Origin: Zoroaster sp. YZ-2022
Taxonomy: Eukaryota; Echinodermata; Asteroidea; Forcipulatida; Zoroasteridae
Assembly (NCBI GenBank): GCA_029582265.1
Contig: CM055817.1
Location: 61,939,152 to 62,003,151 of the forward strand
Length of the DNA: 64,000 nucleotides
Direction of reading: 5' to 3'
Each line of letters starts with the position of its first letter. Position 1 is the first letter of the stretch. The notes below the pieces were generated by a model that saw only the letters and a program-made list of their open reading frames with translations, did no database searches and was not told the DNA's origin. Both the position numbers and the translations under genes were made by a program. This document shows positions 1,351 to 64,000 of this stretch, one piece after another.

Positions 1351-1541
1351 ATGCTGTAATAATGCTGAAATGAAAGTGATTTCCAATTGTCAGACCTTTT
1401 TGTTGGCAAACGTAAAACAAATCATTTACTCAACCGTCACACATAGTGTATATCATTACCAAATGTTGCTATATTGTTTATGTTCCTTTTTCTATTTTAT
1501 TGATAATTATTTTGTTTTACAGAAACGAAGGCCCGTCACAG

Positions 1542-3932
1542 ATGATCAACCAAGTCATTCTCGGCAAATGAGTCCAGAGTTGAGAGATCCGTCACAAGTT
1601 TCCAAATGTAATGCAGCATTGAAAGAACACTACAAAACGACAGGTAGCTATGTGAATATAAATCCTTGGGTGGATGATGATGAAAGATGCAAAATCATTT
1701 ATGTAAAATTGCAGTTGGAAAAAAGCGGAAGGTGTATTCTGAAGTTACATGTGAGATGTTAACTTCCAAAAAGTATGGAACATTGATCTTCCACATGAAT
1801 CAGAAAAGGGCAATTTTCCATTGTTAGCGACTTATTTTCTGTGGCAAGGGGGTGTAGGGAAGTCAACGATCTTTGTTAAAGATTGCCTATGACTGGGCTG
1901 TTGGTTCCAGTGGTGTACTCAACAAGTACAAACTTGTGTTCGTTTTCAAAATGTGTGCATTAGACCAAAGCTCAAACCTTATTGATGCAATCTTTCCAAC
2001 AACTGCTCGAAGAAAACGTAGACATTTCAAAAGAAGCTTTGGATTGAAATCATTTATCATCCAAAACCCTAATGACGTTTTGATTCTTTTGGATGGTTTT
2101 GATGAGTTAAAACAACAATTCTCACCGAAACCTGAATTTGGGTCAATCCTAACAGCCCTGAATAGAAAAAAATACCGTGCAATGTTGCATAGGTGTAACA
2201 ACCCGTCCCTCCCATCTTGAGCGATTAATGGACAAATCATTGGTTCAAAATCCTTGCATACACCTAAAGGTTCTTGGTTTTACAAAAGATGATGTGGAAG
2301 AATATGTCAGAAGTTTTCCCGGGAAACAGTGAGGCACTTATTAGGACAATTAAAAAGTTCAGATGTTCTTTCTGACTTAGCAAGTAATCCAATGATTCTT
2401 CAACTTATCTGTTTAATTTGGAGAGAAGATAAAGAGCTTCCATTAACCATGTCACGCTTATACAGTAAGGCAGTGGATTACATATTCAAAAGGAAAGGCC
2501 ATGAGTCTGATGAAGAAATATCAAGTTTTTGATCAAAATTGGAAGTAGCTGAATGGACTCCTTGACCCAGAACTAAAACTTGCATTTCCAGAGTCTGCAT
2601 TTGAGAAGAATACACTTGCCCTTGCATTAAAGGTAGGCATCCTAAACAGTCAGAGGGTTTTAAAGAATTACAAATCACATAACAGCATACAATTCCTGCA
2701 TAAAACTATGCAGGAATTGTGTGCTGCAAAATATTGGCAGAGCCTACCTCCAAACCAATTTCAGATTATTTTGGATCGCGTATGTGATGGAACACACAAC
2801 ATCAGTGATTTTGAATATCTCCTTCGCTTTTGTTGTGGTGACAATGAAGTGTGCATGAAAAGAATCTTAATTCCACTCCTAAACCCTAAATTAAACAAGT
2901 TGGCATTAAATTGTTATTTTGAGGGTCAGTTACAAGAGATACCTTCAGAGACATATATCAAGTCACTGGTTACAAATACCATAGACATCGATTCCAATAG
3001 TGATTTCCACCGTTCTCATGTTCTTTCTGTCAAATGTTCGCAAGTCAGAGTTTGGAAGGAATTATCTTGGAATAATTGAATATATTGAATTGTATAATAT
3101 ATTCATAACAGAGTCAGTGGATTTATTTGCTCTAGTGCTGAGTAACATGACAAATGTCCAAACGCTTGCCCTGCGTTACTGTTCACTGTCTGTCTGTGAT
3201 TTGAAGACAATTCTGTTGTCCTTGAAAGACAACACACGCTTGAATAAATTAAGTCTTGTTGGTAATACAATGTTAGGAGGCACAGCTTCACAGTGGGCTC
3301 CTCATATTCAACACTTCACAACCCTAAGAGTTCTATCTATACGTGATTGTAACATACAACCTGAAGATATGGAACACATCATGAAGAATGTCAGTAAAAG
3401 CAAGAGTGAGTGTGAGGTAAGATTCCACAGTAACGAAGCACTGGGTGGCAAGGCTGAAATATGGTCTCGTTATTTGTGTCTCATGATACACAACGAGGAG
3501 CTGGACCTGAGTGAGTGCTCATTGGTATGCAATGATATTGAACATATTGCTAATGCATTGAGTGAAATGCCCAACCTGACCCACTTGTCCCTATTGGGAA
3601 ACTCATCCTTAGGAGGGTCTGCCAATGTGTGGTCTCGTTATTTGTGTCACATGATATACATCGAGGAGCTGGACCTGCATGGTTGCTCATTGGTATGCAA
3701 TGATATTGAACATATTGCTAATGCATTGAGTAAAATGACCAACCTGGCCATCTTGTCCCTATGCATCAACTCATCCTTAAGAGGGTCTGCCAATGTGTGG
3801 TCTCGTTATTTGTGTCTCATGAAGCACCTGCGGTGGCTGGACCTGGATGGTTGCAACTTGGATAGTAATGATAAGATCATTATTACTCAGTCCTTGAGTA
3901 AAATGACAAACCCATTTCGTGTCTATTATTGA
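1542..3932 (+). pseudogene. NLR-1: decayed NACHT-LRR receptor copy
   Basis: This is a broken copy of the NACHT-LRR gene at 42089-44539, to which it is closely similar at the nucleotide level. Homology begins after a splice acceptor (CCCGTCACAG, ending 1541) and runs through a pre-NACHT segment, the NACHT ATPase (Walker B reads LILLDGFDEL near 2088-2110), the helical NACHT-associated region and the leucine-rich repeats. NACHT proteins are STAND-type ATPases that oligomerise to start innate immune signalling in the cytoplasm; that is family knowledge. The frame is lost many times: a deletion and frameshift before and within the Walker A segment (about 1745-1880), further shifts near 2030, 2120-2200, 2320, 2530-2560 and 3015, and loss of about 50 bases near 2740 relative to NLR-2. 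The LRR part from about 3020 to the stop at 3930-3932 is open. It is not translatable as one protein. The join that is broken in NLR-2 (the MQELCAAKYW segment, about 2708-2737) is intact here, so the two copies carry different lesions. Confidence 0.9.
3463..3860 (+). repeat. 168-base LRR-encoding tandem units in NLR-1
   Basis: The phrase TGGTCTCGTTATTTGTGT recurs at about 3463, 3631 and 3799, a period of 168 bases (56 residues, two LRRs). Each unit reads roughly WSRYLCxM, then a short LRR, then NDIEHIANALSxM, then a second LRR. The same period occurs in NLR-2 near 44068, 44236 and 44401. Near-identical in-exon units suggest gain or loss of LRR pairs by unequal exchange. Confidence 0.8.
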
Positions 3933-5996
3933 TAACTTGTTCGATTGAATGAGACACATCATGGCATGGCTTTAACTTAGTTTAAGTACGTTAGTAACAA
4001 TACATTTTCCGCCTCCAATATACAAAACAATGCAGCTGACTTATTTACCTTTCCACACTGCTGCATATCATATTGTTATGTTGTTATGAAGGATAAACTA
4101 ATAAAGAATGGACTCGATTCCATTATTTGAAACACTTATTTATTGCTGTACTGTACACCGTAACGGTTCACGATGATATGGGAAGCCATATTGTGTAATA
4201 AGGACTAACTCTTGAGGGCGCACTTCCAATTTACAGTCCAGTTTTTATTTATTTATTTTTTAATTTTTTTTTAATTTTTTTTTTAAATGTGAAGACAAGA
4301 CATACAAATTATGATAAACAGCTCTATTTAGTGGGATGCACCCATGCACATGGAAGCCCATTTTATATGTCAGTCTCGTAAAAAAAACAAGATTTTATTG
4401 AATATTAGAAATACTTTAGAATTCGCAATATGTACATTCGCAATCACTATTGTGAATAATTATTCGCCCTCAGTGTTAACGATCGATCGTACACAGTTCC
4501 TGATCAGGGCTGAGCTGGTTTCACTTCAAACATTGTCTGTTATCAAAATGATTTCAGTATCAAACCATAAAACAACCTTGGTTACCATTGGAAACTCTAT
4601 AATATGAATATTTGAAAACTATAATGAGTAAATAAAAGCCAAAGAAGTGTGAATTGTGAGCAATGATGGACCTTGATCAATGAATTTATGAAAAATTTGT
4701 GGAATCAAAACACATGGCTTTTGGTTGTACTTGTGTGTTTCATATTTATATATTTTTTATTTTAATATATAATATATTTTAGGAAAGTTGTACATTAATT
4801 TATAATACAAAATACTACAGCATATAATCTATATTGAAGATCATATCGTTTTATATTGAATATATTATTTATCAATTTACAAATGTTAAAGATGGATCGC
4901 CTGTGTTTTACCGGCAATTTTCAGAAGTTTGTGTGGGCATTGGAACATTGATAATGTGGACACCAGGTTCATACAGACGACAATTTATATGAATTATCAG
5001 TGGTGTAAATTTGTTAAAGGTGTGATGGATGATTCAATTCCAGTGAACCCCCCCCCTTGAACGTGATCCAGTCCTAAACCCTCCCCAACACCTGAAAATG
5101 TTTATTTATTTATTTATTTTAATTTCAAAGGTTGAATAATTTGATAACAATGGAAGTCCTAAATTATGTTCAAATAAGCCTGAGAGAATCCAAATTTTCC
5201 CGAGGAGTTTGTCCAATATTTGTTTTTTACTTGACCCAAAAGGTTAGTGAGGGTGATCCTATGGACCATCCCCCAACAAAATATTGTTATACCCCATCCC
5301 CTGGGATTTACACCCATCCAGTTTATACCTTCGAGTTTATATACATAATATATTACACAATAATGATTATTTCATTATTTTTTAACTGTTCTGAAATTGT
5401 AGAACCACGATGAACCGTTGATTTATATAATTAATGACGTCATAACCGTACACGTGATTTGACGTCATTATGTTATTGTATTTTTGATATGTGTCAGATT
5501 GTCAAGCAAACCATTTATTTTCACTGATATGCCGGGGTTTTAACTTTAATCATGAATATTCATATTGATATGTCATTCTCGTATAGCCTTATACTAATTA
5601 CATGATATAATATCATTATCATATTGTGTTGATGGAAATTTCAGAGCTCAAATAATGTCCATTGATTGACATTTTAAACTGTATATTTTAAGTGGTTAAA
5701 GATAGAAAGTGAGAATATGTAATTAAAACCACGTGACCTACAAACTATTTAATTTTCACTTTTAGTAGTTTGTGTTTTGTGTCATGCAATGATTGAAACA
5801 AATTCTTATTGGCCTTAATCGAATATTGAGTTTTACTTGATAACATTTATTGCTTTTCTATGTATGTGTCGTGTGAAGACTGGAATCATAGTTTTTATAA
5901 GTCCTCGTTTGTAGTAAAGAAATAAAAGACTGTACAAAACATTAGTGTGTACGTGTGGCTGTTGTACTTTGTCCTTTGTGAATATTATATATATGT
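3933..5996. repeat. 3' flank duplicated downstream of NLR-2
   Basis: Non-coding DNA that matches 44540-44763 and then 47265-49286, with a 2.5 kb insertion in the second copy. Homology stops abruptly at about 5996, after GAATATTATATATATG. The small open frames (for example 4344-4607 and 5132-5413) occur in both copies, but they are short and show no domain, so I do not call them genes. The segment includes short poly-T and TTTA runs. Confidence 0.85.
4100..4105 (+). promoter_or_regulatory. Polyadenylation signal AATAAA after NLR-1
   Basis: AATAAA lies about 170 bases after the NLR-1 stop codon. It is conserved at the matching position after NLR-2 (44704-44709). It would serve the 3' end of the receptor transcript if that is still made. 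Confidence 0.5.
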
Positions 5997-12264: not shown

Positions 12265-13925
12265 TTTCGTAGCGAGAATAAAACCATTGTAAATATCGCA
12301 CCCCTCTTATACTTAAACAAAAAATCAGTCTCATCATAGCGAGAATAAAACCATTGTAAATCTCGCACCCTTATATTCAGACTCGCTCCCTTATACTTAA
12401 ACAACAAATCATTATTATCATAGTGAGAATAAAACCATTGTAAATCTCGCACCCTTATATTCAGACTCGCTCCCTTATACTTAAACAACAAATCATTATT
12501 ATCATAGTGAGAATAAAACCATTGTAAATCTCGCACCCTTATATTCAGACTCGCTCCCTTATACTTAAACAACAAATCATTATTATCATAGTGAGAATAA
12601 AACCATTGTAAATCTCGCACCCTTATATTCAGACTCGCTCCCTTATACTTAAACAACAAATCATTATTATCATAGTGAGAATAAAACCATTGTAAATCTC
12701 GCACCCTTATATTCAGACTCGCTCTCTTATACTTAAACAACAAATCATTATTATCATAGTGAGAATAAAACCATTGTAAATCTCGCACCCTTATATTCAG
12801 ACTCGCTCCCTTATACTTCAACAACAAATCATTATTATCATAGTGAGAATAAAACCATTGTAAATCTCGCACCCTTATATTCAGACTCGCTCCCTTATAC
12901 TTCAACAACAAATCATTATTATCATAGTGAGAATAAAACCATTGTAAATCTCGCACCCTTATATTCAGACTCGCTCCCTTATACTTAAACAACAAATCAT
13001 TATTATCATAGTGAGAATAAAACCATTGTAAATCTCGCACCCTTATATTCAGACTCGCTCCCTTATACTTCAACAACAAATCATTATTATCATAGTGAGA
13101 ATAAAACCATTGTAAATCTCGCACCCTTATATTCAGACTCGCTCCTTATACTTCAACAACAAATCATTATTATCATAGTGAGAATAAAACCATTGTAAAT
13201 CTCGCACCCTTATATTCAGACTCGCTCCCTTATACTTCAACAACAAATCATTATTATCATAGTGAGAATAAAACCATTGTAAATCTCGCACCCTTATATT
13301 CAGACTCGCTCCTTATACTTAAACAACAAATCATTATTATCATAGTGAGAATAAAACCATTGTAAATCTCGCACCCTTATATTCAGACTCGCTCCCTTAT
13401 ACTTCAACAACAAATCATTATTATCATAGTGAGAATAAAACCATTGTAAATCTCGCACCCTTATATTCAGACTCGCTCCCTTATACTTCAACAACAAATC
13501 ATTATTATCATAGTGAGAATAAAACCATTGTAAATCTCGCACCCTTATATTCAGACTCGCTCCCTTATACTTAAACAACAAATCATTATTATCATAGTGA
13601 GAATAAAACCATTGTAAATCTCGCACCCTTATATTCAGACTCGCTCCCTTATACTTAAACAACAAATCATTATTATCATAGTGAGAATAAAACCATTGTA
13701 AATCTCGCACCCTTATATTCAGACTCGCTACCTTATACTTAAACAACAAATCATTATTATCATAGTGAGAATAAAACCATTGTAAATCTCGCACCCTTAT
13801 ATTCAGACTCGCTCCCTTATACTTAAACAACAAATCATTATTATCATAGTGAGAATAAAACCATTGTAAATCTCGCACCCTTATATTCAGACTCGCTCCC
13901 TTATACTTCAACTAAAAATCAGTCT
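12265..13925. repeat. 84-base minisatellite, main array (about 19-20 copies)
   Basis: Highly homogeneous 84-base units (CTTATACTTAAACAACAAAT, then CATTATTATCATAGTGAGAA, ending CAGACTCGCTCC). The unit length is a multiple of three, so the minus strand stays open for hundreds of codons. That is a by-product of the period and not a gene. Two units near 13143 and 13311 have lost a C, which breaks the apparent frame. Confidence 0.95.
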
Positions 13926-13939
13926 CATCATAGCAAGGT

Positions 13940-26945: not shown

Positions 26946-27167
26946 TAAAATAAATTTATGTAATTTAAAACATGTTTTGTGTATATATTTATTTGTTCTA
27001 TTTTATCATTCCTTTTGGAGTTGCAGTTGAAATAAAATAATTATTGGTCTGTTCTTGTGAAAAAAAAAAGGAAAGAAAAAAAATGTATGTTATCTGACTT
27101 ATTTATTTCCTAAGCCCTAGGTCATACTTAAACCAGTTACAAATCCTCTCTGTATTCATTTCATACT

Positions 27168-27815
27168 ATGAACCCGCAAATGAAACATCCCTTCACCTGT
27201 GTGATAGCAGGACCAACCGGCTCAGGCAAAACTCAGTTCGTAAAACGTTTGCTGGTTCCAGCGTATGAAAATGTCATCGAACCTCCACCAGACAACATCG
27301 TGTTGTGCTACGGAGAGTTTCAACATGCTTACGCTCATTTGGCAAACATGGTTCGTGATATACAATTTGTGGAAGGTATTCCAGATGACCTTCATACGAA
27401 AATACATCGATCCAGGAACAATATGATAGTGATCGATGATCTCATGTCTGAAACTGGCAACAGCAAACGGATTACGGAGCTTTTTACCAAGGGCAGTCAT
27501 CATAGAAATCTTTCCATTGTGTTGATTCTCCAAAATTTATTTCATCAGGGCAAAGAAATGCGCACGATTAGTCTCAACGCACATTACCTGATCCTCTTCA
27601 AAAATCCTAGGGACGCTTCCCAGATAAACCATCTGGCAAAACAAATGTATCCCACCAAATCAAAGTTCATGGTCGAAGCCTACCGAGATGCCACTTTACC
27701 ACCCTACGGTTACCTTTTCATTGATCTAAAACCCGAAACGTCCGAGGAAATGAGACTAAGGACCCACATTTTTCCGGTGAGAATCCAATTGTGTATGTCC
27801 CGAAGGTATAAATGA
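27168..27815 (+). CDS. Polinton/Maverick packaging ATPase (A32/FtsK-like)
   Basis: An uninterrupted 215-residue frame. A Walker A motif (AGPTGSGKT, residues about 14-22) and a Walker B motif (NMIVIDDLM, about 84-92) are separated by a normal distance, followed by a polar sensor segment (LILQNLF, about 121-127). This combination is typical of the DNA-packaging ATPase of Polintons and related double-stranded DNA viruses, which drives genome entry into the capsid. The length is near that expected for the family. It is the only Polinton gene here without a stop, frameshift or truncation. The ATG lies directly after non-coding DNA and a short poly-A tract. Downstream genes on the same strand are broken. 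Confidence 0.85.
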   Translation: MNPQMKHPFTCVIAGPTGSGKTQFVKRLLVPAYENVIEPPPDNIVLCYGEFQHAYAHLANMVRDIQFVEGIPDDLHTKIHRSRNNMIVIDDLMSETGNSKRITELFTKGSHHRNLSIVLILQNLFHQGKEMRTISLNAHYLILFKNPRDASQINHLAKQMYPTKSKFMVEAYRDATLPPYGYLFIDLKPETSEEMRLRTHIFPVRIQLCMSRRYK

Positions 27816-27847
27816 AGTGAAGATCCGAGCACGTCATTCATTTGAAG

Positions 27848-28663
27848 ATGTCTAACCGCGTGCGGAACCACGCTCGTACCTACAAGTCCTAGCAAAGGGA
27901 AATACCAAACAGCGTCAGGGTGTGATCCAGGAGCCAGTAAAGAACTTATCGCTTGTGTGTGAGTGTGCCCTCAACATCCTCAATGGGAACATAAGTCTGA
28001 AAACCCGCCGACAAAAGAAAACTAAAAATACAAGCATCACATCAGAGCCCTCGCCACCAAAAAAACTTAGTGTCCAGAAGAAGAAAAAATTCTTCATCAA
28101 AAGGTGGATTCCTGGGTGCATTACTTACCCCTGTTTTGAGTGCACTTGCCGGTCTGCTCTTCAAGTAACGATGCAGCACACCAAGAAAATGGTACTTGTT
28201 CCCCGACGACACTTTCGCAACTGCAAGCTGCAAGACTGTTAGAACAAACTCCAACAACGCGTGTAGTGCACGGTTTGGACGAAGACATGAGGACTCTGCT
28301 CGAAAGGCAGGATATCACAGACGAAGAGAAAATGAAGCTGTATCATCAGACACTTCAGAGGTACACCATTTTAAATCGGCAGAGGAAGGCCCTTTAACCA
28401 TGAACTTGCAAATGAATAGTGATGAATCCAAAGACCAGCCCAAGTTAGAGCGAACACCAGGAGAACCACCCAAGTTAGAACGAGAACCCGTCACCCACTA
28501 TCCTACTAAATTTAAAGCTGAGCTGAAAGGGTACCCTGAGGAGTCGTTCGGTCTACCTCGACTGTTTGCCGAAGCTACACATCTATCACCCCTTTCCCTT
28601 CGAGGTAAGAAAAAGAAGAGAGAGGACCGTAAACAAGCCACCCCGAAATGGACTCCATATTAA
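27848..28663 (+). pseudogene. Polinton small structural protein(s), frameshifted
   Basis: Between the ATPase and the integrase lies a basic protein in pieces. A frame from about 27848 begins MSNRVRNHARTY and is frameshifted near 27895. A basic stretch (KKLSVQKKKKFFIK, about 28061-28102) leads into a small hydrophobic, Gly/Ala/Leu-rich segment beginning GGFLGALL (28103) and ending at TAA 28166-28168. A new start follows at 28171; after a shift near 28205 the frame continues with DEDMRTLLERQDI to TAA near 28395, and a further frame runs to the C-terminal KWTPY (28663). The order basic, hydrophobic, helical is what many Polintons carry between ATPase and integrase; the exact role is not established. 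At least three frame changes are needed, so this is a relic. Confidence 0.6.
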
Positions 28664-28823
28664 AAGATGTATCGAGTCTTTTCTTGTCATTTTGTGTTTT
28701 CGTTCACCATGGACTGTTGTCCTCCCAAGTCCGACTGTGGACCCCAACACTTTCTTAAGAAAATCCGTTGCACATGGGCTTGTTGTCAAAGCACCGTCAT
28801 CATTACAAACTCGGATTCTACCG

Positions 28824-29885
28824 ATGGCGGAGGCATACCTGAAGAAGGTGTATTACGACCCCAAACATCCCGCTGCCTTTGGTGGTGTGGAGGCTGTTTA
28901 CCGCGCTGCAGTAAGAGACGGCATCAATGTCACAAAGAAACAGATAACTGTATGGTTGCGGGAACAGCCGACCTACACGTTGCACAAACCAATACGGAGA
29001 AATTTTAAAAGAAATAGGGTCGAAGTGCATGGCATCGATCACCAATGGCAGGCAGATTTGGTAGATATGTCCTCGCTCAAAGAACACAATCGAGGGTACA
29101 GGTATTTGCTGACGTGCATCGATGTCTTTTCGAAGTATGCGTGGGTCGTTCCTCTGAAAGATAAGACTGGGACAACTTTAGTGAAAGCCATCAAAAAGAT
29201 TTTAAAAGGAGGGAGAAAGCCGCGTCTGCTTCAGACCGATAAGGGTACCGAATTTATCAATGAACAGTTTCAGGCTTTTCTCAAGAAAACGAATATCTAC
29301 TTCTTCACTACCAATAATGAAACCAAAGCCAGCATTGTTGAGAGATTTAACAGAACACTGAAGACAAAAATGTGGAAATATTTCACGGCCAACAACACGT
29401 ACCATACAAAGGTCCTCCCCGCATTACTTTCTGGCTACAATCATTCGTTTCACAGAAGTATAAAATCCACCCCGGCGTCAGTCAATACGTCCAATGTCGA
29501 TCGAATAAGACAGGCGCTGTACACCCCTGACTCCAACCCCTAAAACTGTCTTCAAGTTCGAGGTTGGAGATACGGTTCGCACATCAGCATGGCCGCCAGG
29601 CCTTTCCGTAAGAGTTATTTACCAAGCTGGACCACCGAACTGTTTACCATCAACGCCAGAATCCCCGCCACCCCTGTGTACACGTTGAACGATTATGAGG
29701 GAGAGCAATTGGAGGGAACTTTCTACGAGCAAGAACTACAACATGCAGTTCAGAAGGACGACCTGTACAAAGTTGAAAAAATACTGAAAACCAGAAGGCG
29801 ACGGGGGAACCTAGAATACTTCGTGAAATGGTTTGGATATCCGGAAAAATTCAATAGCTGGGTGTCCAGGTTGCACGCTCTATAA
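28824..29885 (+). pseudogene. Polinton retroviral-type integrase with chromodomain, frameshifted
   Basis: From an ATG at 28824 the frame gives an N-terminal helical segment (FGGVEAVYRAAV), then a DDE integrase core: first Asp in HQWQADLVDM, second Asp in LLQTDKGTEF and Glu in IVERFNRTLK, with about 35 residues between the last two. The core is open to 29541. A different frame covers about 29525-29585 (FKFEVGD), and a third from 29589 carries a chromodomain ending in YFVKWFGYPEKFNSW. Polinton integrases join element ends to the host genome, and a C-terminal chromodomain is usual; that is family knowledge. Two frameshifts, near 29530 and 29580, separate core and chromodomain, so the full enzyme cannot be made. 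Confidence 0.85.
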
Positions 29886-32530: not shown

Positions 32531-33030
32531 NNNNNNNNNNNNNNNNNNNNNNNNNNNNNNNNNNNNNNNNNNNNNNNNNNNNNNNNNNNNNNNNNNNNNN
32601 NNNNNNNNNNNNNNNNNNNNNNNNNNNNNNNNNNNNNNNNNNNNNNNNNNNNNNNNNNNNNNNNNNNNNNNNNNNNNNNNNNNNNNNNNNNNNNNNNNNN
32701 NNNNNNNNNNNNNNNNNNNNNNNNNNNNNNNNNNNNNNNNNNNNNNNNNNNNNNNNNNNNNNNNNNNNNNNNNNNNNNNNNNNNNNNNNNNNNNNNNNNN
32801 NNNNNNNNNNNNNNNNNNNNNNNNNNNNNNNNNNNNNNNNNNNNNNNNNNNNNNNNNNNNNNNNNNNNNNNNNNNNNNNNNNNNNNNNNNNNNNNNNNNN
32901 NNNNNNNNNNNNNNNNNNNNNNNNNNNNNNNNNNNNNNNNNNNNNNNNNNNNNNNNNNNNNNNNNNNNNNNNNNNNNNNNNNNNNNNNNNNNNNNNNNNN
33001 NNNNNNNNNNNNNNNNNNNNNNNNNNNNNN
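32531..33030. other. Assembly gap (500 N)
   Basis: A run of exactly 500 N, a placeholder of unknown true length. It falls within the Polinton, where further genes (major capsid, polymerase) might have lain. Open frames spanning it are not real. Confidence 1.
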
Positions 33031-36056: not shown

Positions 36057-36123
36057 GTTTCGTGACGCTGCTGTCTCCTGTGGATTCTGTTAAGCTCAAT
36101 AAGGATGGATGGTACCCCATCAG
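36057..36123 (+). other. Possible upstream exon of NLR-2
   Basis: A 67-base open stretch between an acceptor (TATTTGTCTCAG) and a donor (CATCAG|GTACAA). It could encode VTLLSPVDSVKLNKDGWYP. There is no homology support and its length is not a multiple of three, so this is only a candidate. Confidence 0.2.
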
Positions 36124-36583: not shown

Positions 36584-36671
36584 ATCGTCCAGAAACATCC
36601 CAGCATAGACCTAGCCAGTCAGTCACACAGTATCCTGATGTACGTACGACCTAAACAGCGGATAACATCGG
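36584..36671 (+). pseudogene. Decayed mini-exon of the NLR-2 array
   Basis: Preceded by an acceptor (TTATTCTTCAG, ending 36583), it contains the family signature CCAGTCAGTCACACA and CCTAAACAGCGGATAACAT. A 4-base duplication (GTACGTAC) shifts the frame and the donor has become GGCTAA. It is the most 5' recognisable unit of the array. Confidence 0.65.
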
Positions 36672-36774
36672 CTAAAGTATCAACTTTGAAATGTTTGTTT
36701 GATAGTGAACATGTTATTTTCATTGATTTTTGGTAATTAATGGTGCACGTATCCTACCTTTCTATATCTTCTAG

Positions 36775-36846
36775 AAACATCCCAGCCCCAGTCAGTCACA
36801 CAGGATCCTACTGTATGCCCTAAGCAGCAGATACATGTAACATCCG
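36775..36846 (+). CDS. Mini-exon, diverged 72-base unit
   Basis: An acceptor (ATCTTCTAG) and a donor (CATCCG|GTAAAG) bound 72 bases (24 codons) that are open in phase 1: ETSQPQSVTQDPTVCPKQ and a few more residues. It is clearly related to the 63-base units downstream, but longer and diverged. Confidence 0.6.
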
Positions 36847-36887
36847 GTAAAGTGTCAACTTTAACACATTTCTTGAGTGCCAATCAG

Positions 36888-36935
36888 GCTCACATGAACA
36901 GCGACCTGTACGACCCAAACAGCGGATAACATCAG
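36888..36935 (+). CDS. Mini-exon, shortened 48-base unit
   Basis: Bounded by AATCAG and the donor ATCAG|GTAACG. It encodes the last 16 residues of the repeat (SHEQRPVRPKQRITS type) in phase 1. The usual pyrimidine-rich acceptor is missing; the AG used here is inside what is normally exon, so this unit may be truncated. Confidence 0.5.
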
Positions 36936-37026
36936 GTAACGTTTGAAATATTTATTTCATATTTCATAATTTCTATTCATTACTTTTGGTAATTACCTGT
37001 ACTAATAGTGAATCCTTCCTTTGCAG

Positions 37027-37089
37027 ATCTTAGCCAGTCAGTCACACATGAACAGCGACCTGTACGACCTAAACAGCGGATAACATCAG
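37027..37089 (+). CDS. Mini-exon 1 of the homogeneous array (63 bases)
   Basis: Acceptor CCTTTGCAG, then 63 bases, then donor ATCAG|GTAACG. Read in phase 1 (two bases finishing a codon at the start, one base left at the end) it is open and encodes 21 residues: Asp/Glu completed across the junction, Leu, then SQSVTHEQRPVRPKQRITS. Length and phase make it skippable without a frame change. The segment is basic and rich in Gln/Arg/Pro, probably an unstructured linker. It lies upstream of the Death exon (40946), which accepts the same phase. Confidence 0.7.
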
Positions 37090-37179
37090 GTAACGTTTGA
37101 AATATTTATTTCATATTTCATAATTTCTATTCATTACTTTGGTAATTACCTGTACTAATAGTGAATCCTTCCTTTACAG

Positions 37180-37242
37180 ATCTTAGCCAGTCAGTCACAC
37201 ATGAACAGCGACCTGTACGACCTAAACAGCGGATAACATCAG
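37180..37242 (+). CDS. Mini-exon 2 of the homogeneous array
   Basis: Identical in structure to 37027-37089, with acceptor CCTTTACAG and donor CAG|GTAACG, 63 bases, phase 1-1, no stop. The intron before it is 90 bases and is also nearly identical to its neighbours. Confidence 0.7.
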
Positions 37243-37334
37243 GTAACGTTTGAAATATTTATTTCATATTTCATAATTTCTATTCATTACTTTTTGGTAA
37301 TTACCTGTACTAATAGTGAATCCTTCCTTTGCAG

Positions 37335-37397
37335 ATCTTAGCCAGTCAGTCACACATGAACAGCGACCTGTACGACCTAAACAGCGGATAACATCAG
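37335..37397 (+). CDS. Mini-exon 3 of the homogeneous array
   Basis: 63 bases, acceptor CCTTTGCAG, donor CAG|GTAACG, phase 1-1, encoding the same 21 residues without change. The preceding intron is 92 bases. Confidence 0.7.
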
Positions 37398-37490
37398 GTA
37401 ACGTTTGAAATATTTATTTCATATTTCATAATTTCTATTCATTACCTTTTGGGTAATTACCTGTACTAATAGTGAATCCTTCCTTTACAG

Positions 37491-37553
37491 ATCTTAGCCA
37501 GTCAGTCACACATGAACAGCGACCTGTACGACCTAAACAGCGGATAACATCAG
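37491..37553 (+). CDS. Mini-exon 4 of the homogeneous array
   Basis: 63 bases, acceptor CCTTTACAG, donor CAG|GTAACG, phase 1-1, same peptide. The preceding intron is 93 bases. Confidence 0.7.
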
Positions 37554-37631
37554 GTAACGTTTGAAATATTTATTTCATATTTCATGATTTCTATTCATTA
37601 CCTGTACTAATGGTGAATCCTTCCTTTACAG

Positions 37632-37694
37632 ATCTTAGCCAGTCAGTCACACATGAACAGCGACCTGTACGACCTAAACAGCGTATAACATCAG
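37632..37694 (+). CDS. Mini-exon 5 of the homogeneous array
   Basis: 63 bases, same splice sites and phase. One change (CGG to CGT) is synonymous for Arg. The preceding intron is shortened to 78 bases. Confidence 0.7.
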
Positions 37695-37772
37695 GTAACG
37701 TTTGAAATATTTATTTCATATTTCATAATGTCTATTCATTACCTGTACTAATAGTGAATCCTTCCTTTACAG

Positions 37773-37835
37773 AACTTAGCCAGTCAGTCACACATGAACA
37801 GCGACCTGTACGACCTAAACAGCGGATAACATCAG
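37773..37835 (+). CDS. Mini-exon 6 of the homogeneous array
   Basis: 63 bases, same splice sites and phase. The first base pair is AA instead of AT, which changes the junction codon from Asp to Glu. The preceding intron is 78 bases. Confidence 0.7.
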
Positions 37836-37928
37836 GTAACGTTTGAAATATTTATTTCATAATTTCATAATTTCTATTCATTACTTTTTGGTAATTACCT
37901 GTACTAATAGTGAATCCGTCCTTTACAG

Positions 37929-37985
37929 ATCTTAGCCAATCGGTCACACAGGATCGTGATGTCCGACCGAAACAGCGGACATCAG
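37929..37985 (+). CDS. Mini-exon 7, 57-base variant
   Basis: Acceptor CCTTTACAG, donor ATCAG|GTAAAG, 57 bases (19 codons), still phase 1-1 and open: LSQSVTQDRDVRPKQRTS. It resembles the unit at 40001 (VAQDPSVRPKQ) more than its left neighbours. Loss of exactly two codons keeps the frame. Confidence 0.7.
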
Positions 37986-38204
37986 GTAAAGTTTGATATG
38001 TTTGCTTGATAATCATATAGTGTGAATATGACATGGAGGTGCACATCATCATTAATGTATCTGTATGTACTTCTGACATCATGGGCATCAATCGCTACTT
38101 ACAAGTGTGAGTAAGCGTAACATACCCTATGTGGACCTAAGAACAAAAAATATCCACACAATGCAGGTTCTTCAGACGTTATATTTTCACAAATCTAAAT
38201 CTAA

Positions 38205-38412
38205 ATTTCACAAATCTAAATTTTCTCAAAGGAAGCATTTTAGTATATATGTGATTGTAATGTCGTAAAATGGAGTAGATTGATTATTCAAGGGAAAGAC
38301 TGAGACAAAATTTCACAAATCTAAATTTTCTTAAAGGAAGCATTTTGGTATATGTGATTGTAATGTCGTAAAATGGAGTAGATTATTCAAGGGAAAGACT
38401 GAGACAAAATTC
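38205..38412. repeat. About 100-base tandem duplication
   Basis: CACAAATCTAAATTTTCT through GACTGAGACAAAATT occurs twice in a row (about 38212-38315 and 38314-38410) with small indels. Non-coding. Confidence 0.85.
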
Positions 38413-38956
38413 GCTCCAAAAAGAATCTTCAGTGCAAATGGCAATGGTTTGAAAAGTGTGTTTTACTTAATTACACGATAACAATAGTAGTCCACATGTG
38501 TGCAGTCATTGGCAGATCCAGGATTTGGTTAACATGGGGGTTGGGGAACCCAGGTCACACAGCCTCACCCCCCTTGTAGGCAAAATATTTTTATAAAGTT
38601 TTCTTTATTGCCATGGCCACTTTGCCCCCCTCCTGTATTCACCCTGTGTCCGTCACTCTGCATGTGTGATCTGCAGCATTTATTTTGGATTCTTGATGCT
38701 CTGTAGTACATTCCGAGTGCTTAAAATAATGACTTCTTTTAATGGTTTCCAGAGATGCAGTAAGAAATGTAACCTATTCCTTATGGTTTAGAGTTCAAAT
38801 TTGTTCAGGACCTTTTTATATGGGTGACCAAAAAACGTTGGGGTTGGGACACACATTTATTGATATAGCGGCCCACTACTCTAAAAAGGGGAATGCAAGT
38901 CCATCAATCCCCAAACACTCTACACCCATTGATGGGGAAATGAGGGTGGTCCCATT

Positions 38957-39997
38957 GGGCCGGATAAATAAAAGTTAGCAATTGCTTATCTAGTAAAAGC
39001 TCAAGCAATAGCAATTGCTTAACAAGTAAAAGCTCAAGGTTAAGCAATTGCTTAAAAATGTATAAATAACCTTCTTCTTTGACTAGCACCTGTTGCTTGG
39101 GTGGGTTAGCAATTGCTTATGGGTATAACAATGATGGGAGGTCAGTTCCGATTAGCCTAGTGGTTGTATATGAGGCATGTATTAGCAACATGGATGCTGC
39201 CGAAGAATTGGGGAGTGGTACAAATAGTGAGCAATCTTTGAACGAACTGTTCGTTAGTATAATCAAAGACTACCCTGTTCTAATCGAGAAAAGTCAGTTG
39301 CCGGGGGTAAAAGACATGAAGGCAAATGCACTTAAAAAAGCACAAATGTCAATTGCTACCAACACAGGTAAAGCTATGGATGAGAAGCAAATTTTGAAAA
39401 AGATAGCAAACATGAAAAGTCACGTGAAGAAGAAATCAGATGGAATGCAAACAGGAAATAGGAAGATTGCTTTGGTTCCATGGGAACAAGATCTGTACAA
39501 CATCTTCAAAGGGGATGAAAACCCGACTATTACGAAGATGCCATGCGCCATTTCTGCTGGTTTCAAACCAAGTACTTCGACTGCTGCTAGCCACTCCAAA
39601 TTTTCAAAATTGAACAGAAATAATGTCCGGTATCTGGTATGATTGACTTCATCACGATTTATTCTTTCATTGGACACCTTTTCATGTTCCCTTACATGCA
39701 TAAACTCGGCCATGATGGCAGGAGTAATGCAACATGCAAGTGTTAGCAAATGCGTAAGCTCCTCATTTAGTATCTTGTAAAAATATTAGCAAGTGCTACA
39801 AGTCATTAGTAAAAGGTCTGGTTTATTTATATGCTTCCAAGCAAGTGCTAATCTCTCTAGTAATTGCTTAAAAATCATAGCACTTGCTTTTGCTTACTAC
39901 TGGAAGCAATTACTTGCAAGTAATTGCTCACTTTTATTAATGAAGATTTAAGAAAATGACTAGTAAAAGCAATTGCTACTTTTTATTTATCCGGCCC
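38957..39997. mobile_element. PIF/Harbinger-like element beside a mini-exon
   Basis: The ends are inverted repeats of about 30 bases beginning GGGCCGGATAAATAAA, flanked by a 3-base duplication ATT (38954-38956 and 39998-40000). The sub-terminal regions are full of AGCAATTGCTT and AGTAAAAGC motifs in both orientations. It encodes a Myb/SANT-like protein but no transposase. Three-base duplications and an accessory Myb-like protein are typical of PIF/Harbinger elements. The right end abuts the last mini-exon, replacing the intron sequence and acceptor. Confidence 0.8.
39190..39642 (+). CDS. Myb/SANT-like protein of the Harbinger-like element
   Basis: 150 codons from ATG 39190; the frame is open further upstream, to about 39079. 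The N-terminal half has a trihelical pattern: LNELFVSIIKDYPVLIEKSQ, then ILKKIANMKSHVKKKSD, then WEQDLYNIF. This matches the MADF/Myb-SANT-like DNA-binding domains that PIF/Harbinger elements use to bind their ends. A Ser/Thr-rich tail follows. A donor-like CTG|GTATGA occurs at the end, so the gene may once have had another exon. It sits alone in a 1041-base element, so transposition would need a transposase supplied from elsewhere. Confidence 0.65.
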   Translation: MDAAEELGSGTNSEQSLNELFVSIIKDYPVLIEKSQLPGVKDMKANALKKAQMSIATNTGKAMDEKQILKKIANMKSHVKKKSDGMQTGNRKIALVPWEQDLYNIFKGDENPTITKMPCAISAGFKPSTSTAASHSKFSKLNRNNVRYLV

Positions 39998-40000
39998 ATT

Positions 40001-40066
40001 ATGATTCACCTGGCCAATCAGTCGCACAAGATCCTTCTGTACGACCTAAACAGTCGATAACATCAG
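40001..40066 (+). CDS. Last mini-exon of NLR-2, acceptor disrupted
   Basis: It reads GQSVAQDPSVRPKQSITS in the phase-1 frame and ends with the donor ATCAG|GTAATG. It is the nearest mini-exon to the Death exon. No pyrimidine-rich acceptor is visible, because the Harbinger-like element ends exactly at 39997 and its ATT duplication follows. The exon is probably no longer spliced, or it uses a site inside the element. Confidence 0.5.
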
Positions 40067-40520: not shown

Positions 40521-40945
40521 AACAAATATTGAGTGCCTTTTATTTTGTTAATTTTGTGAAGTTTGATAATCATAGTGTGGTGATGTAGCCAGCTGTGATT
40601 TTATATGCATGAACTTATAGCATGGAGTTGCATCAATCGCTACTTAGACGTGTGTGAATATAGTGAAAATGCATTCAGATTTTAAGAATTCATTCTAATG
40701 AGAAGTTAGGAAAGTTTACTCTTTTCTTAATGTGAAAGGGAAATTATTTAAATTTTCTTAAAAGTAAAGGCACCTCATCAGACAAAAAAAAAAAAAAATC
40801 TTTTATGGAAAATACCACTCTGTTGATTGCTTGACCTTAAATTTGGCAAAATCATGTTTATTTAATTCTGTATTTACCCCCAAAAGGACATTGCTATATC
40901 CTCTCTTGTGCCATGAATAACGTCTATTCGACTTTTCTGTGTTAG

Positions 40946-41206
40946 TTAACATTCCAGAGGTTCTGAATGCAAAACTTATCGCAAGGATATCAAAGGACAT
41001 TGGCAACAACTGGAAGTTACTAGCTGCCGAATTGGGTTTGGAAGAACCAGACATTCAAACATTTGCAGCAGATGCCCCACTTAATCAAGTAGAACAGACA
41101 CGAACAATGCTGAGTGAATGGGTCAGAAGAAATGCCGAGAGAAGTGATCGTGTTGCTGTGTTGATATCAGCTTTGAAAACCATTGGTCTAAATGATGTGG
41201 CATTGA
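40946..41206 (+). CDS. NLR-2 Death-fold exon
   Basis: 261 bases between an acceptor (TTTCTGTGTTAG) and a donor (CATTGA|GTGAGT). It encodes 87 residues of a Death-type six-helix domain: IPEVLNAKLIARISKDIGNN, then WKLLAAELGL, then DIQTFAADAPLNQVEQ, then MLSEWVRR, then VLISALKTIGLNDVAL. The conserved Trp in helix 2 and the LSEW helix 5 are characteristic. Death domains recruit signalling partners through like-like contacts in the cytoplasm. Start and end are both phase 1, so the exon is symmetric. The last base plus the first two of the NACHT exon (42089) form a Ser codon and keep the frame. An intact inverted paralogue lies at 62949-63209. Confidence 0.85.
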
Positions 41207-42088
41207 GTGAGTATGGTTATATTTTCTTGTTTTTAAAATGTTTTGAATTGTCAGTTTGGCAATATTTATTTCCGCTAAATCGGTAATGCCAGTACACCAA
41301 AGGTTTTGCCAGTGACTGTTCTAACCAGCTCCACTTTTTTTTATCAATGTATGTATCTGAAATATTCAATTTGAAGATGCAATAATGTTTAAAATTTTTG
41401 AATACTGACAAGCCCAACCATATTGTGAGTATGACACGTGTGTTAAGTTTTGATTTGAACAAACTTTAAATTAGGGATCAAGTTAGTTTGGAACAAATTC
41501 TTTAGGAATGAACATGGCTTTGGACAACTTGGTTTGCAACCAAGCTTAATTTGAAATCTTCTCTTTTTTTCCCTCTCGAACATAATTCAATGATAACTGG
41601 ATCCGATCCCAGTGAATTGATGTGAGATTAATTATTTAAGTAAAAATATTCTTACCAAATCCACTTACTTAGTCTGTACCTGATGATAGGCATGCATGTG
41701 GCAAAAACAATAACGATGTGTGTAATCAGGCGAAACTAGAGTGATTACAAATTATAGGTCCTTTTGGTGGCATATTTCTGTTTCACTTTTACTAAGCCGT
41801 TCACACGCTTAAATAATATATATGCAATTTTGCAGAATTCTTTATTTTTCTTTGTCTAACAGTGTGTTCTGTCTGTTTCAAGAGTCATACTATTCAAAAC
41901 ATCTTTAACTATCCTCACTACCGGTTATTTTCAGAACCACACCAATTCTTCCAAGAAGAGATTATTACACATGGTGTTACCCATAAACCTAATCTTCTAA
42001 TATCCAATCCATCATGCAAAGCTTCAAATCAAATTTAACTTGTGGATGTATATCTATTTTGTTTTTACGGAAGTAATGTCTCTCACAG
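41207..42088. other. Intron between Death and NACHT exons of NLR-2
   Basis: Mostly unique non-coding DNA. Its reverse complement recurs at 62240-62948 in NLR-3. The polypyrimidine tract and TCTCTCACAG form the acceptor. Confidence 0.7.
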
Positions 42089-43275
42089 GTTATCAGCCAA
42101 GCCATTCTCAGGAAATGGGTCCAGAGTTGAGAGATCGTTCACAAGTTGCCGCTGACAAATGTAATGCAGCATTGAAAGTACACTACACAACGATAGGTAG
42201 CTATATGAATATAAATCCTTGGGAGGATGGTGATCAGATGCACATTAAAATTTATACAAAATTGCAGTTGGAAAAAAGTGAAGGTGCATCTGTTGTTATG
42301 ACAAACAGTGAGATGTTGAATTCCATCGAGTATGAAAAGATATTCCTCATTAAGTCAAGAGAGGGCAATTTTGTTAAGCGACTTATTTTCTTTGGCAAAG
42401 GGGGTGTAGGGAAGTCAACGTTCTTTGACAATATTGCCTACGACTGGGCAGTTGATGCCAGTGATGTACTCAAAAAGTACAAACTTGTGTTCGTTTTGAA
42501 AATGTGTGCATTAGACCAAAGCTCAAACCTTATTGATGCAATTTTCCAACAACTGCTCGAAGAAGACGTACTCATTTCAAAAGACGCATTGAAATCACTT
42601 ATCATCCAAAACCCTAATGACGTTTTGATTCTTTTGGATGGTTTTGATGAGTTGACAACGACAATTCTCACTGAAACCTCATTTGGGTCAATCCTAAAAG
42701 CCCTGAATAGAAAAACATACTACCGTGAATGTTGCATAGGTGTAACAACCCGTCCCTCCCATCTTAAGCGCTTAATGGACAAATCATTGGTTCAAAATCC
42801 TTGCATACACCTGAAGATTCTTGGTTTTACAAAAGATGATGTGGAAGAATATATCAGAAAGTTTTTCCCTGGAAACAGTGAGGCACTTATTAAGGCAATT
42901 AAAAATTCAGATGTTCTTTCTGACTTGGCAAGTAATCCAATGATTCTTCAACTTATCTGTTTAATTTGGAGAGAAGATGCAGCACTTCCATTAACCATGT
43001 CACGCTTATACAGTAAGGCGGTGAGTTACATATTCAAAAGGAAAGGCCATGAGTCTGATGAAGAAATATCAGAAGTTTTGATCAAAATTGGAGAAGTAGC
43101 GCTGAATGGACTCCTTGACCCAGAACTAAAACTTGCATTTCCAGAGTCTGCATTTGAGAAGAATACACTTGCCCTTGCATTAAAGGCAGGCATCCTAAAC
43201 AGTCAGAGCGTTTTCAAGAATTGCAAATCACATAACAGCATACAATTCCTGCATAAAACTATGCAGGGTTGTTAA
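42089..43275 (+). CDS. NLR-2 NACHT exon, N-terminal part, ends in premature stop
   Basis: After the acceptor TCTCTCACAG the frame encodes about 395 residues. A pre-NACHT segment (QPSHSQEMGPELRDRSQ, then NINPWEDG) is followed by the NACHT ATPase: Walker A FFGKGGVGKST near 42391-42420, Walker B VLILLDGFDEL near 42622-42654, a CCIGVTTRPSH sensor stretch, then the winged-helix and superhelical regions (ILQLICLIWR, EVALNGLLDPE, SIQFLHKTMQ). NACHT NLRs act as cytoplasmic pattern receptors; oligomerisation is driven by nucleotide binding (family knowledge). The frame ends at TAA 43273-43275, exactly where NLR-1 reads on through CAAKYWQSL. The LRR part continues open after 43276 in a compatible frame, so a small substitution or indel here broke the gene. 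Both ATP-binding motifs are intact. Confidence 0.85.
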
Positions 43276-44539
43276 CTGCTAAAAATTAACGCAGAGCCTA
43301 CTTCCAATCAGTCGGGTCAAACGTTTTGCAACACAACTATTGAAAATTGGAACATTTCAGAATATTTTGGATCGCGTATGTGATGGAACACACAACATCA
43401 GTGATTTTGAATATCTCCTTCCCTTTTGTTGTGGTGACAATGAAGTGTGCATGAAAAGAATCTTAATTCCACTCCTAAACCGTAAATTAAACAAGTTGGC
43501 ATTACGTTGTTATTTTGAGGGTCAGTTACAAGAGATACCTTCAGAGACGTATATCAAGTCACTGGTTACACATACCATAGACATCGATTCCAATAGTGAT
43601 TTCCACTCACTCATGTTCTTTCTGTCAAATGTTCGCAAGTCAGAGTTTGGAAGGAATTATCTTGGAATAATTGAACATATTATATTGTCTAATATATTCA
43701 TAACAGAGTCAGTGGATTTATTTGCTCTAGCGCCGAGTAACATGACAAATGTCCAAATGCTTACCCTGTGGTACTGTTCACTGTCTGTCAGTGATTTGAA
43801 GACAATTATGTTGTCCTTGAAAGACAACACACGCTTGAATAAATTAAGTCTTAATGGTATTATTGGTAATACAATGTTAGGAGGCACAGCTTCACTGTGG
43901 GCTCCTCATATTCAACTCTTGAAAACCCTAAGAGTTCTATCTATAGTTGATTGTAACATACAACCTGAAGATATGGAACACATCATGAAGATTGTCAGTA
44001 AAAGCAAGAGTGAGTGTGAGGTAAGCTTCTACGGTAACGAAGCACTGGGTGGCAAGGCCGAAATATGGTCTCGTTATTTGTGTCTCATGATACACAACAA
44101 GGAGCTGAACCTGAGTTATTGCTCATTGGTATGCAATGATATTGAACATATTGCTAAGCCATTGAGTGAAATGCCCAACCTGACCGACTTGAACCTATCT
44201 GTAAACTCATCCTTAGGATGGTCTGCCGATGTGTGGTCTCGTTATTTGTGTCTCATGATACACATCAAGGTGCTGGACCTGAGTGGTTGCTCATTGGTAT
44301 GCAATGATATTGAACATATTGCTAATGCATTGAGTAAAATGCCCAAGCTGACCCACTTGGACCTACGGTTCAACTCATCCTTAGGAGTGTCTGCCAATGT
44401 GTGGTCTCGTTATTTGTGTCTCATGAAGCACCTGCGGGTGCTGTACCTGGGTTATTGCAACTTAGATAGTAATGATAAGATCATTATTACTCAGTCCTTG
44501 AATAAAATGACAAACCCATTTGATGTCGGATATTGGTAA
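43276..44539 (+). pseudogene. NLR-2 C-terminal part with leucine-rich repeats
   Basis: An open frame from about 43296 (reading LLPISRVKRFATQLLKIGTF, then NILDRVCDG) to TAA 44537-44539. It holds the end of the NACHT-associated superhelix and about eight LRRs of the ribonuclease-inhibitor type, for example HIKVLDLSGCSLVCNDIEHI. It includes about 50 bases near 43306-43360 that NLR-1 lacks. It is separated from the NACHT part only by the lesion at 43268-43290 and would form one protein with it in an intact relative. An internal ATG at 43340 is not a credible natural start. The first base at which the frames reconnect cannot be fixed without an intact family member. Confidence 0.8.
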
Positions 44540-44703
44540 CTTGTTCGATTGAATGAGACACATCATGGCTTTAACGTTAGTAACAATACATTTTCCTCCT
44601 CCAATAAGAAGCTCTATGTATATATACAAAACAATGCAGCTGACTTATTTACCTTTCCACACTGCTGCATATCATATTGTTATGTTGTTATGAAGGATAA
44701 ACT

Positions 44704-60718: not shown

Positions 60719-61218
60719 NNNNNNNNNNNNNNNNNNNNNNNNNNNNNNNNNNNNNNNNNNNNNNNNNNNNNNNNNNNNNNNNNNNNNNNNNNNNNNNNNN
60801 NNNNNNNNNNNNNNNNNNNNNNNNNNNNNNNNNNNNNNNNNNNNNNNNNNNNNNNNNNNNNNNNNNNNNNNNNNNNNNNNNNNNNNNNNNNNNNNNNNNN
60901 NNNNNNNNNNNNNNNNNNNNNNNNNNNNNNNNNNNNNNNNNNNNNNNNNNNNNNNNNNNNNNNNNNNNNNNNNNNNNNNNNNNNNNNNNNNNNNNNNNNN
61001 NNNNNNNNNNNNNNNNNNNNNNNNNNNNNNNNNNNNNNNNNNNNNNNNNNNNNNNNNNNNNNNNNNNNNNNNNNNNNNNNNNNNNNNNNNNNNNNNNNNN
61101 NNNNNNNNNNNNNNNNNNNNNNNNNNNNNNNNNNNNNNNNNNNNNNNNNNNNNNNNNNNNNNNNNNNNNNNNNNNNNNNNNNNNNNNNNNNNNNNNNNNN
61201 NNNNNNNNNNNNNNNNNN
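60719..61218. other. Assembly gap (500 N)
   Basis: Exactly 500 N. The left edge is a tandem repeat and the right edge is the inverted NLR block, so the missing DNA probably includes more repeat units and part of NLR-3. Confidence 1.
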
Positions 61219-62240: not shown

Positions 62241-63511
62241 TTTTGATACAGTTTGTCAACAAAATTCAGACGTTTGCATGATGGATTGGATATTAGAAGG
62301 TTAGGTTTATGGGTAACACCATGTGTAATAATCTCTTCTTGGAAGAATTGGTATGGTTCTGAAAATAACCGGTAGTGAGGATAGTTAAAGATATTTTGAA
62401 CAGTATGACTCTTGAAACAGAGAGAACACACTGTTAGACAAAGGAAAATTGTTTTTTGCTACATGCATGACTATCTTCAGGTACAGACTAAGTAAGGGGA
62501 TTTGGTAAGAATTTGTTTACTTAAATAATTAATCTCACATCAATTCACTGGGATCGGATCCAGTTATCATTGAATTATGTTCGAGAGAAAAAAAGAGAAG
62601 ATTTCAAATTAAGCTTGGTTGCAAACCAAGTTGTCCAAAGCCATGTTCATTCCTAAAGAATTTGTTCCAAACTAACTTGATCCCTAATTTCAAGTTTGTT
62701 CAAATCAAAGCTCAACAAATGCTTCATACTCGCAATATGGTTGGGCTTGTCAGTATTCAAAAATTTTAAACTTTATTGCATATACAAACTGAATATTTCA
62801 GATACATACATTGATCAAAAAAGTGGAGCTGGTTAGAACAGTCACTGGCAAAACCTTTGGTGTACTGGCATTACCGATTTAGCGGAAATAAATATTGCCA
62901 TACTAACAATTCAAAACATTTCAAAAACAAGAAAATCACCATACTCACTCAATGCCACATCATTTAGACCAATGGTTTTCAAAGCTGATATCAACACAGC
63001 AACACGATCACCTCTCTCAGCATTTCTTCTGACCCATTCACTGAGCATTGTTCGTGTCTGTTCTACTTGATTAAGTGGGGCATCTGCTCTGAATGTTTCA
63101 ATGTCTGGTTGTTTGAAATCCAATTCGGAAGCTAGTATCGTCCACTTGTTACCAATGTCCTTTGATATCCTTGCGATAAGTTTATCATTTAGAACCTCTG
63201 GAATGTTACCTGACACAGAAAAGTCAAATAGACATTATTCATGCCACAAGAGAGGATATAGCAATGCCCTTTTGGGGGTAAATACAGAATTAAATAAACG
63301 TGATTTTGCCAAATTTGAGGTCAAGCAATCAACAGTGGTATTTTCCATAAAAGATCCCTCTGGTTTTTTTTGTCTAATGAGGTGCCTTTACTTTAAAGAA
63401 AATTTAAATAATTTCCCTTTCACATTAAGAAAAGAGTAAACTTTCCTAACTTCTCATTAGAATGAATTCTTAAAATCTGAATGCATTTTCACTATATTCA
63501 CACACGTCTAA
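62241..63511 (-). repeat. Inverted copy of the NLR-2 Death-exon region
   Basis: The reverse complement aligns to about 40640-42000, including both introns around the Death exon. It defines the third, opposite-strand NLR locus. Confidence 0.85.
62949..63209 (-). CDS. NLR-3 Death-fold exon
   Basis: Minus-strand exon of 261 bases, the same length and phase (1-1) as the NLR-2 Death exon. Its acceptor (CTGTGTCAG) is better than that of NLR-2 and its donor is GTGAGT. It encodes IPEVLNDKLIARISKDIGNK, then WTILASELDF, then DIETFRADAPLNQVEQ and the LSEW helix, with no stop. Substitutions relative to NLR-2 cluster in helices 2-3 (for example KLLAAELGLEE versus TILASELDFKQ), while helices 4-6 are almost unchanged. 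It is part of an inverted NLR copy transcribed leftward into the assembly gap. Confidence 0.85.
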
Positions 63512-64000
63512 GTAGCGATTGATGCAACTCTATGCTATAGTGCATGCATATAAGTAGCGATTGATGCAACTCCATGCCATAGTGCATGCATATAAGTAGC
63601 GATTGATGCAACTCCATGCCATAGTGCATGCATATAAGTAGCGATTGATGCAACTCTATGCCATAGTGCATGCATATAAGTAGCGATTGATGCAACTCTA
63701 TGCCATAGTGCATGCATATAAGTAGCGATTGATGCAACTCCATGCCATAGTGCATGCATATAAGTAGCGATTGATGCAACTCTATGCTATAGTGCATGCA
63801 AGTAGCGATTGATGCAACTCCATGCCATAGTGCATGCATATAAGTAGCGATTGATGCAACTCCATGCTATAGTGCATGCATATAAGTAGCGATTGATGCA
63901 ACTCCATGCTATAGTGTATGCATATCAGTAGCGATTGATGCAACTCCATGCTATAGTGTATGCATATAAGTAGCGATTGATGCAACTCCATGCCATAGTG
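63512..64000. repeat. 42-base minisatellite, about 11-12 copies, reaching the window end
   Basis: Unit AGTAGCGATTGATGCAACTC, then CATGCCATAGTGCATGCATA plus TA. Alternating CTATGCTATAG and CCATGCCATAG variants. NLR-2 has a single inverted unit at about 40612-40650 (GAGTTGCATCAATCGCTACT), so the array grew from an intron sequence of the NLR family. One unit near 63800 lacks 4 bases. Confidence 0.95.

Follow-up and report, generated by a model that had tools for sequence, protein, structure and literature searches.

Repeats near the N-terminus of an NLR have been described in the zebrafish NLR-C family, where, in the part of the source available, a motif of ~30 residues is repeated, each N-terminal peptide lies on a single exon, and the repeats are extensively duplicated in groups 2b and 3b (PMC4852459). 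A 2024 figure legend, from a source likewise available in part, places the repeats of NLR-C / NLR-B30.2 before the death-fold domain (PMC11192531). Here we analyzed a 64,000-nucleotide stretch of Zoroaster sp. YZ-2022 (GCA_029582265.1, contig CM055817.1, positions 61,939,152 to 62,003,151; hereafter the window), which contains a tandem array of short units resembling mini-exons, followed by exons for a Death domain and a NACHT domain. The predicted plan of this array is very similar to the exon-encoded, variable-number N-terminal repeats already described for zebrafish NLR-C. On balance, we think that the units are genuine coding exons of a Death-NACHT receptor gene, possibly with leucine-rich repeats (LRRs), which are or recently were spliced in, adding a flexible arm of basic character in front of the Death domain.

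Zebrafish NLR-C genes combine NACHT with an N-terminal peptide repeat present once per exon (PMC4852459, PMC11192531); the locus here likewise has a NACHT exon, and on its predicted exons the repeat would be arranged in the same way. The same sources, as far as available, attribute to the fish genes a variable repeat number, a death-fold domain in subsets of members, a large family size and exon shuffling. The fish repeat of ~30 residues is accompanied by FISNA and often by B30.2, whereas the unit here is 21 residues long, the two repeats being compared by description only. No match to FISNA (PF14484) was found in 42001-43275 at E 0.001, and no B30.2 domain among the 16 window frames scanned with Pfam. 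Among the papers listed in literature searches, including those on NLR and NACHT genes, no such array appeared in an invertebrate NLR, judging by titles and the starts of abstracts, which does not prove absence.

Several other systems share parts of this plan. In titin, the PEVK exons are short, in frame and arranged in runs, and determine how long an unstructured arm is; unlike those of this muscle protein, the units here are a set of recent near-identical copies. A schistosome gene, going by a 1988 title, reportedly has tandemly repeated exons that encode 81-base repeats, with multiple transcripts. Schistosome micro-exon genes have short exons mostly divisible by three, and their alternative splicing is linked to protein variation (PMC10526429, available in part). 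The latter encode secreted parasite proteins and have introns of up to ~5 kb, in contrast to the near-identical units, 78-93-base introns and NLR gene found here; such genes consist mainly of short in-frame exons, unlike the gene here, whose NACHT exon spans 42089-43275. NLRP3 also has modular exons, and skipping of its exon 5 yields an inactive form, but its modules are LRRs, according to the available part of the source (PMC6642158), whereas here they form an N-terminal linker array.

A blastn search of the whole window with the 63-base sequence (E up to 1; hits longer than 25 bases kept) located the units at 11 places, from 36612 to 40066 of the plus strand. Exon limits were set by the flanking AG and GT, giving the following units:

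36584..36677, plus strand: unit U1, decayed; a 4-base insertion breaks the frame, the usual donor is spoiled and there is no sound end
36775..36846, plus strand: U2, diverged 72-base mini-exon, phase 1-1, ETSQPQSVTQDPTVCPKQQIHVTS, with good splice sites
36888..36935, plus strand: U3, open 48-base unit, 41 bases behind the U2 donor
37027..37089, plus strand: U4, 63-base mini-exon, phase 1-1
37180..37242, plus strand: U5, 63-base mini-exon
37335..37397, plus strand: U6, 63-base mini-exon
37491..37553, plus strand: U7, 63-base mini-exon
37632..37694, plus strand: U8, 63-base mini-exon with one silent change
37773..37835, plus strand: U9, 63-base mini-exon, first residue changed from D to E
37929..37985, plus strand: U10, diverged 57-base mini-exon, DLSQSVTQDRDVRPKQRTS
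40022..40066, plus strand: U11, remnant unit, 45 bases by a makeshift acceptor, with a good donor and the usual acceptor lost

The original prediction, made from the sequence alone, described at least seven complete units, six of 63 bases and one of 57, each with its own acceptor, donor and open phase-1 frame. The coordinates and frames confirm this: U4-U9 and U10 each have the form AG-exon-GT, phase 1 is the sole open frame in these units and in U2, and U4-U10 contain no stop or lost splice site. The exon lengths of U2-U11 are all multiples of three, counting U11 as the 45 bases set by its makeshift acceptor. The predicted repeating linker of 21 residues was also found, as [D/E]LSQSVTHEQRPVRPKQRITS, the earlier account having printed 19 of the 21 residues. 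U4-U7 are identical over 63 bases, with U8 and U9 one base away each, and the introns between units measure 78-93 bases, as had been proposed. The eight sound units (U2 and U4-U10) contain no in-frame ATG. Searched against Pfam, the linker gave 11 matches up to E 10, all under the family cutoffs (best, TX13_rpt: 8.7e-8, 32.8 bits against a cutoff of 40.3), which we take as an effect of the repetitive query; against the PDB it gave zero matches up to E 1.

To rank the splice donors, pairing with the 5' end of U1 small nuclear RNA (snRNA) was scored against that of 7439 GT sites on both window strands. The donor of U3-U9 (CAG/GTAACG, the slash marking the exon end) is among the best 1.6%, that of U10 (CAG/GTAAAG) the best 1.0%, that of U11 (CAG/GTAATG) the best 1.3% and that of U2 (CCG/GTAAAG) the best 5.4%. 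The donors of all eight sound units equal or better that of the Death exon (best 6.0%). A branch-like TACTAAT motif lies 5' of all seven acceptors of U4-U10; in the whole window, TACTAAY occurs 17 times on the plus strand and 14 times on the minus strand. The 15 bases before the acceptor include 10-11 pyrimidines in U4-U10, 13 in U2 and 9 in U3. Since the NACHT exon acceptor also has 9, this measure alone does not condemn U3.

Three units have defects of other kinds. In unit U1 an extra GTAC shifts the frame, and the donor GGTAAAG now reads GGCTAAAG, which together rule it out as an ordinary unit exon; a 60-base version ending TAC/GTACGA would keep the phase, but its pairing with U1 snRNA is very weak (-0.9). 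Direct splicing of U2 to U3 is ruled out by the 41-base gap, too short for an ordinary intron. The two read as a single 161-base exon would be open through these 41 bases, but U3 would be entered in another frame, with a stop near its end. At U11 the usual acceptor has TG instead of AG, the nearest substitute being an internal CAG just before 40022. These defects leave 8 of the 11 units looking usable, while U1, U3 and U11 are probably dead. Of the diverged units of 72, 48 and about 66 bases that had been proposed as additional exons, the 72-base U2 therefore stands with good sites, and splicing of the 48-base U3, unit U1 and U11 is doubtful. The related proposal that any subset could be spliced in holds as regards the symmetric 1-1 phase of the units, but not for the pair U2 and U3, which are too close to join, nor for the three units that are probably dead.

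The exons surrounding the array are:

36057..36123, plus strand: candidate first coding exon, with AG just 5', ATG at 36105, start peptide MDGTPS and phase-1 donor CAG/GTACAA
40946..41206, plus strand: Death domain exon, 261 bases, phase 1-1 (PF00531, 4.7e-14)
42089..43275, plus strand: NACHT exon with a phase-1 acceptor, its frame running to a stop at 43275 (PF05729, 6e-27, above cutoff)
43283..44539, plus strand: open frame with LRRs, 418 codons, out of frame with the NACHT exon

The Death domain exon precedes the NACHT exon, and the phases of the two agree with each other and with the units, so the proposed context of an innate immune receptor is well founded. The Death exon product weakly matched chains of FADD and PIDD in the PDB, and the NACHT exon product had PDB sequence matches to chains of Baculoviral IAP repeat-containing protein 1e, NLRP3 and NLRC4. 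When 3.75 kb were scanned for ATGs followed by an in-frame phase-1 donor, the first cutoff let through 4 rows, and the ATG at 36105, which has A at -3 and G at +4, accounted for two. In a control with the same ATG context and a cutoff of -7.0, 5 ATGs were found in ~126 kb, counting both strands, and one lies in the 1 kb before U2. The MDGTPS exon at 36057-36123 is thus no more than a candidate for the gene start. Read in its ATG-less frame (FVTLLSPVDSVKLNKDGWYPIR), the same exon ends in phase 2 and runs into stops in unit U1 and in U2, and the ATG frame is preferred. Joining the start exon, the eight sound units, the Death exon and the NACHT exon gave a single open frame of 657 residues. In this model the arm before the Death domain has 175 residues, a K+R minus D+E of +11 and an isoelectric point of ~11. 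Rfam and tRNA scans gave zero matches, and a bacterial-type promoter scan (10 sites against 7.0 expected) is uninformative for an animal gene.

We compared the units to reconstruct their history. In U4-U9, 2 of 63 exon columns are variable, against 6 of 94 columns (16 with gaps) in the seven introns before U4-U10 (Fisher p 0.48). The suggestion that introns are as conserved as exons is therefore correct for these young copies. It fails for the old units U1, U2, U10 and U11, in which the exon core aligns with U4 and the intron aligns only near the donor. These old units and the array type have in common QSV[T/A]Q (QSVTH in the array type), a V further on, PKQ and TS at the end. Because introns are repeated along with exons, the proposed duplication of whole exon-intron units is supported. 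One deletion is common to the introns preceding U8 and U9, and acceptor variants alternate between U4/U6 and U5/U7, which suggests that duplication probably involved single units as well as blocks of two. Tandem Repeats Finder reported a two-unit period of 297, which together with the alternating acceptors is the pattern expected from unequal exchange.

Traces of protein constraint were sought in the diverged units. The exon lengths of U2 and U10 differ from that of U4 by multiples of three. Variable core columns fall mostly at third codon positions (10 of 18, against 5 first and 3 second positions), and 7 of 13 distinct core changes from U4 are silent, against an expected share of ~0.28 (p ~0.04), in a small sample that leaves out the replaced middle block of the units. 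The length differences in multiples of three and the weak lean towards silent changes together suggest that the units were under protein constraint in the past.

A number of observations weigh against the interpretation of the units as coding exons in use. The 657-residue frame ends at 43275, before the LRRs, whereas an animal NLR with a Death domain would carry these in frame after NACHT; possibly truncated or pseudogenic, this copy may no longer make a full receptor. The intron between U10 and the Death exon is 2960 bases long and holds a transposon-like insertion. Three of the 11 units look broken, and the unit donors lack G at +5. The control cutoff of -7.0 for the start exon was picked after the candidate had been seen at -7.1. 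The silent excess is weak (p 0.02 to 0.13, depending on whether the silent share is set at 0.24, at 0.35 or in between), and the ratio of nonsynonymous (dN) to synonymous (dS) divergence exceeds one in 2 of 10 unit pairs (U1-U4, U4-U11). Finally, an upstream copy at 1508-4166, ~88% identical, is decayed and heavily frameshifted; given this and the stop ahead of the LRRs, the entire gene may be dead. The lost frame, the frameshifted upstream copy and the three broken units would be accounted for if the array lay in a pseudogene, its units being former exons and the recent copies a neutral minisatellite of 141-156 bases that happens to contain a dead exon; the young copies, whose exons do not have significantly fewer variable columns than their introns, also agree with such an origin. 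However, the start exon, eight units, Death exon and NACHT exon are still open over 657 residues, and U4-U10 remain intact. The LRR frame is likewise open for 418 codons, so any loss could be of recent date or stem from an error in the assembly. We regard a pseudogene as unlikely, though deserving to be kept in mind.

It is very unlikely that the array is non-coding, for example a regulatory or structural repeat in an intron upstream of the Death exon. The missing in-frame ATG in the eight sound units and the duplication of introns along with exons would fit such a repeat, but not the single open frame in all eight, the frame-preserving indels of U2 and U10, the splice signals, or the agreement in phase with the Death and NACHT exons. 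If the units are coding exons, as we favor, all the sound ones might be constitutive, giving a fixed repeat-rich arm whose copy number alone varies between alleles or paralogs. This is a special case of the coding-exon interpretation rather than its competitor, and we give it a substantial chance, somewhat short of even. Splice sites at both ends of the young units are near-identical, so that nothing in them favors skipping any one unit rather than the rest; on the other hand, the sequence is compatible with skipping, and optional use is common for very short exons and for donors that lack G at +5.

Further copies of the gene are present in the window. Over 42089-44600, the upstream and the main copy differ in length at 22 places (a 23rd, an edge gap, left out), and at 18 of these the difference is not a multiple of three; two of them, near 43267 and 43289, mark where the main copy loses its frame. 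A third, inverted copy has an open Death exon at 63209-62949; its similarity stops at 62273 without a NACHT exon, and on the other side it enters repeats at the window end. With the upstream copy decayed and the third lacking NACHT, the locus is, judging from these copies, a cluster with decaying members. The main and third copies differ at 17 of the initial 123 Death-exon bases (40946-41068, compared with 63209-63087 on the minus strand), against 3 of the remaining 138 exon bases and 33 of 772 bases in the introns on either side (p 1.4e-4). Positive selection was considered and is not favored; in the first 41 codons dN (0.156) and dS (0.142) are raised together, which makes a converted tract the likelier explanation. 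At 63509-64000 in the third copy, a stretch that is single in the pre-Death intron (~40601-40646) is repeated ~12 times with a 42-base period.

The insertion between U10 and U11 has the following features:

38956..39998, no strand assigned: DNA-transposon-like insertion with 32-base inverted ends (30 of 32 alike) and ATT on both sides

It contains an open frame of 190 codons without a Pfam match, and its 3-base target copy is reminiscent of Harbinger-type elements. Elsewhere in the window, 27132-29543 contains Polinton/Maverick-like genes, with a packaging-ATPase-like frame (PF04665, PF02456) and an integrase core (PF00665). At 12306-13933, an 84-base unit occurs ~19 times at 98% likeness; on the minus strand, long stretches of it are open as a repeat of 28 residues. 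Two runs of exactly 500 N (32531-33030 and 60719-61218) are probably assembly gaps.

Under the coding-exon interpretation, the old units would have diverged while probably under protein constraint, and one unit type would recently have gained copies as exon and intron together were duplicated in tandem. The units would encode a basic, probably unstructured arm between the MDGTPS start peptide and the Death domain. The start exon, the sound units and the Death exon all meet in phase 1, so units could be gained, lost or skipped without damage to the frame. Such changes, in steps of ~21 residues, might arise in the germ line via unequal exchange or in the transcript via skipping. Arm length most likely varies, at least by copy number; it may also vary by splicing, with a possible effect on Death-domain assembly or signalling. 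A more ambitious possibility, which we consider quite unlikely, is that in this animal lineage the receptor family tunes its signalling through the mini-exon array, arm length varying by allele and by splicing so that a single gene yields graded receptors that differ in the ease of Death-domain assembly, with an origin separate from that of the fish repeats. Should the units be spliced in, there would be two animal receptor families with a multi-copy, exon-encoded repeat near the NLR N-terminus. Two such families, if real, would suggest that arm length matters for signalling by these sensors.

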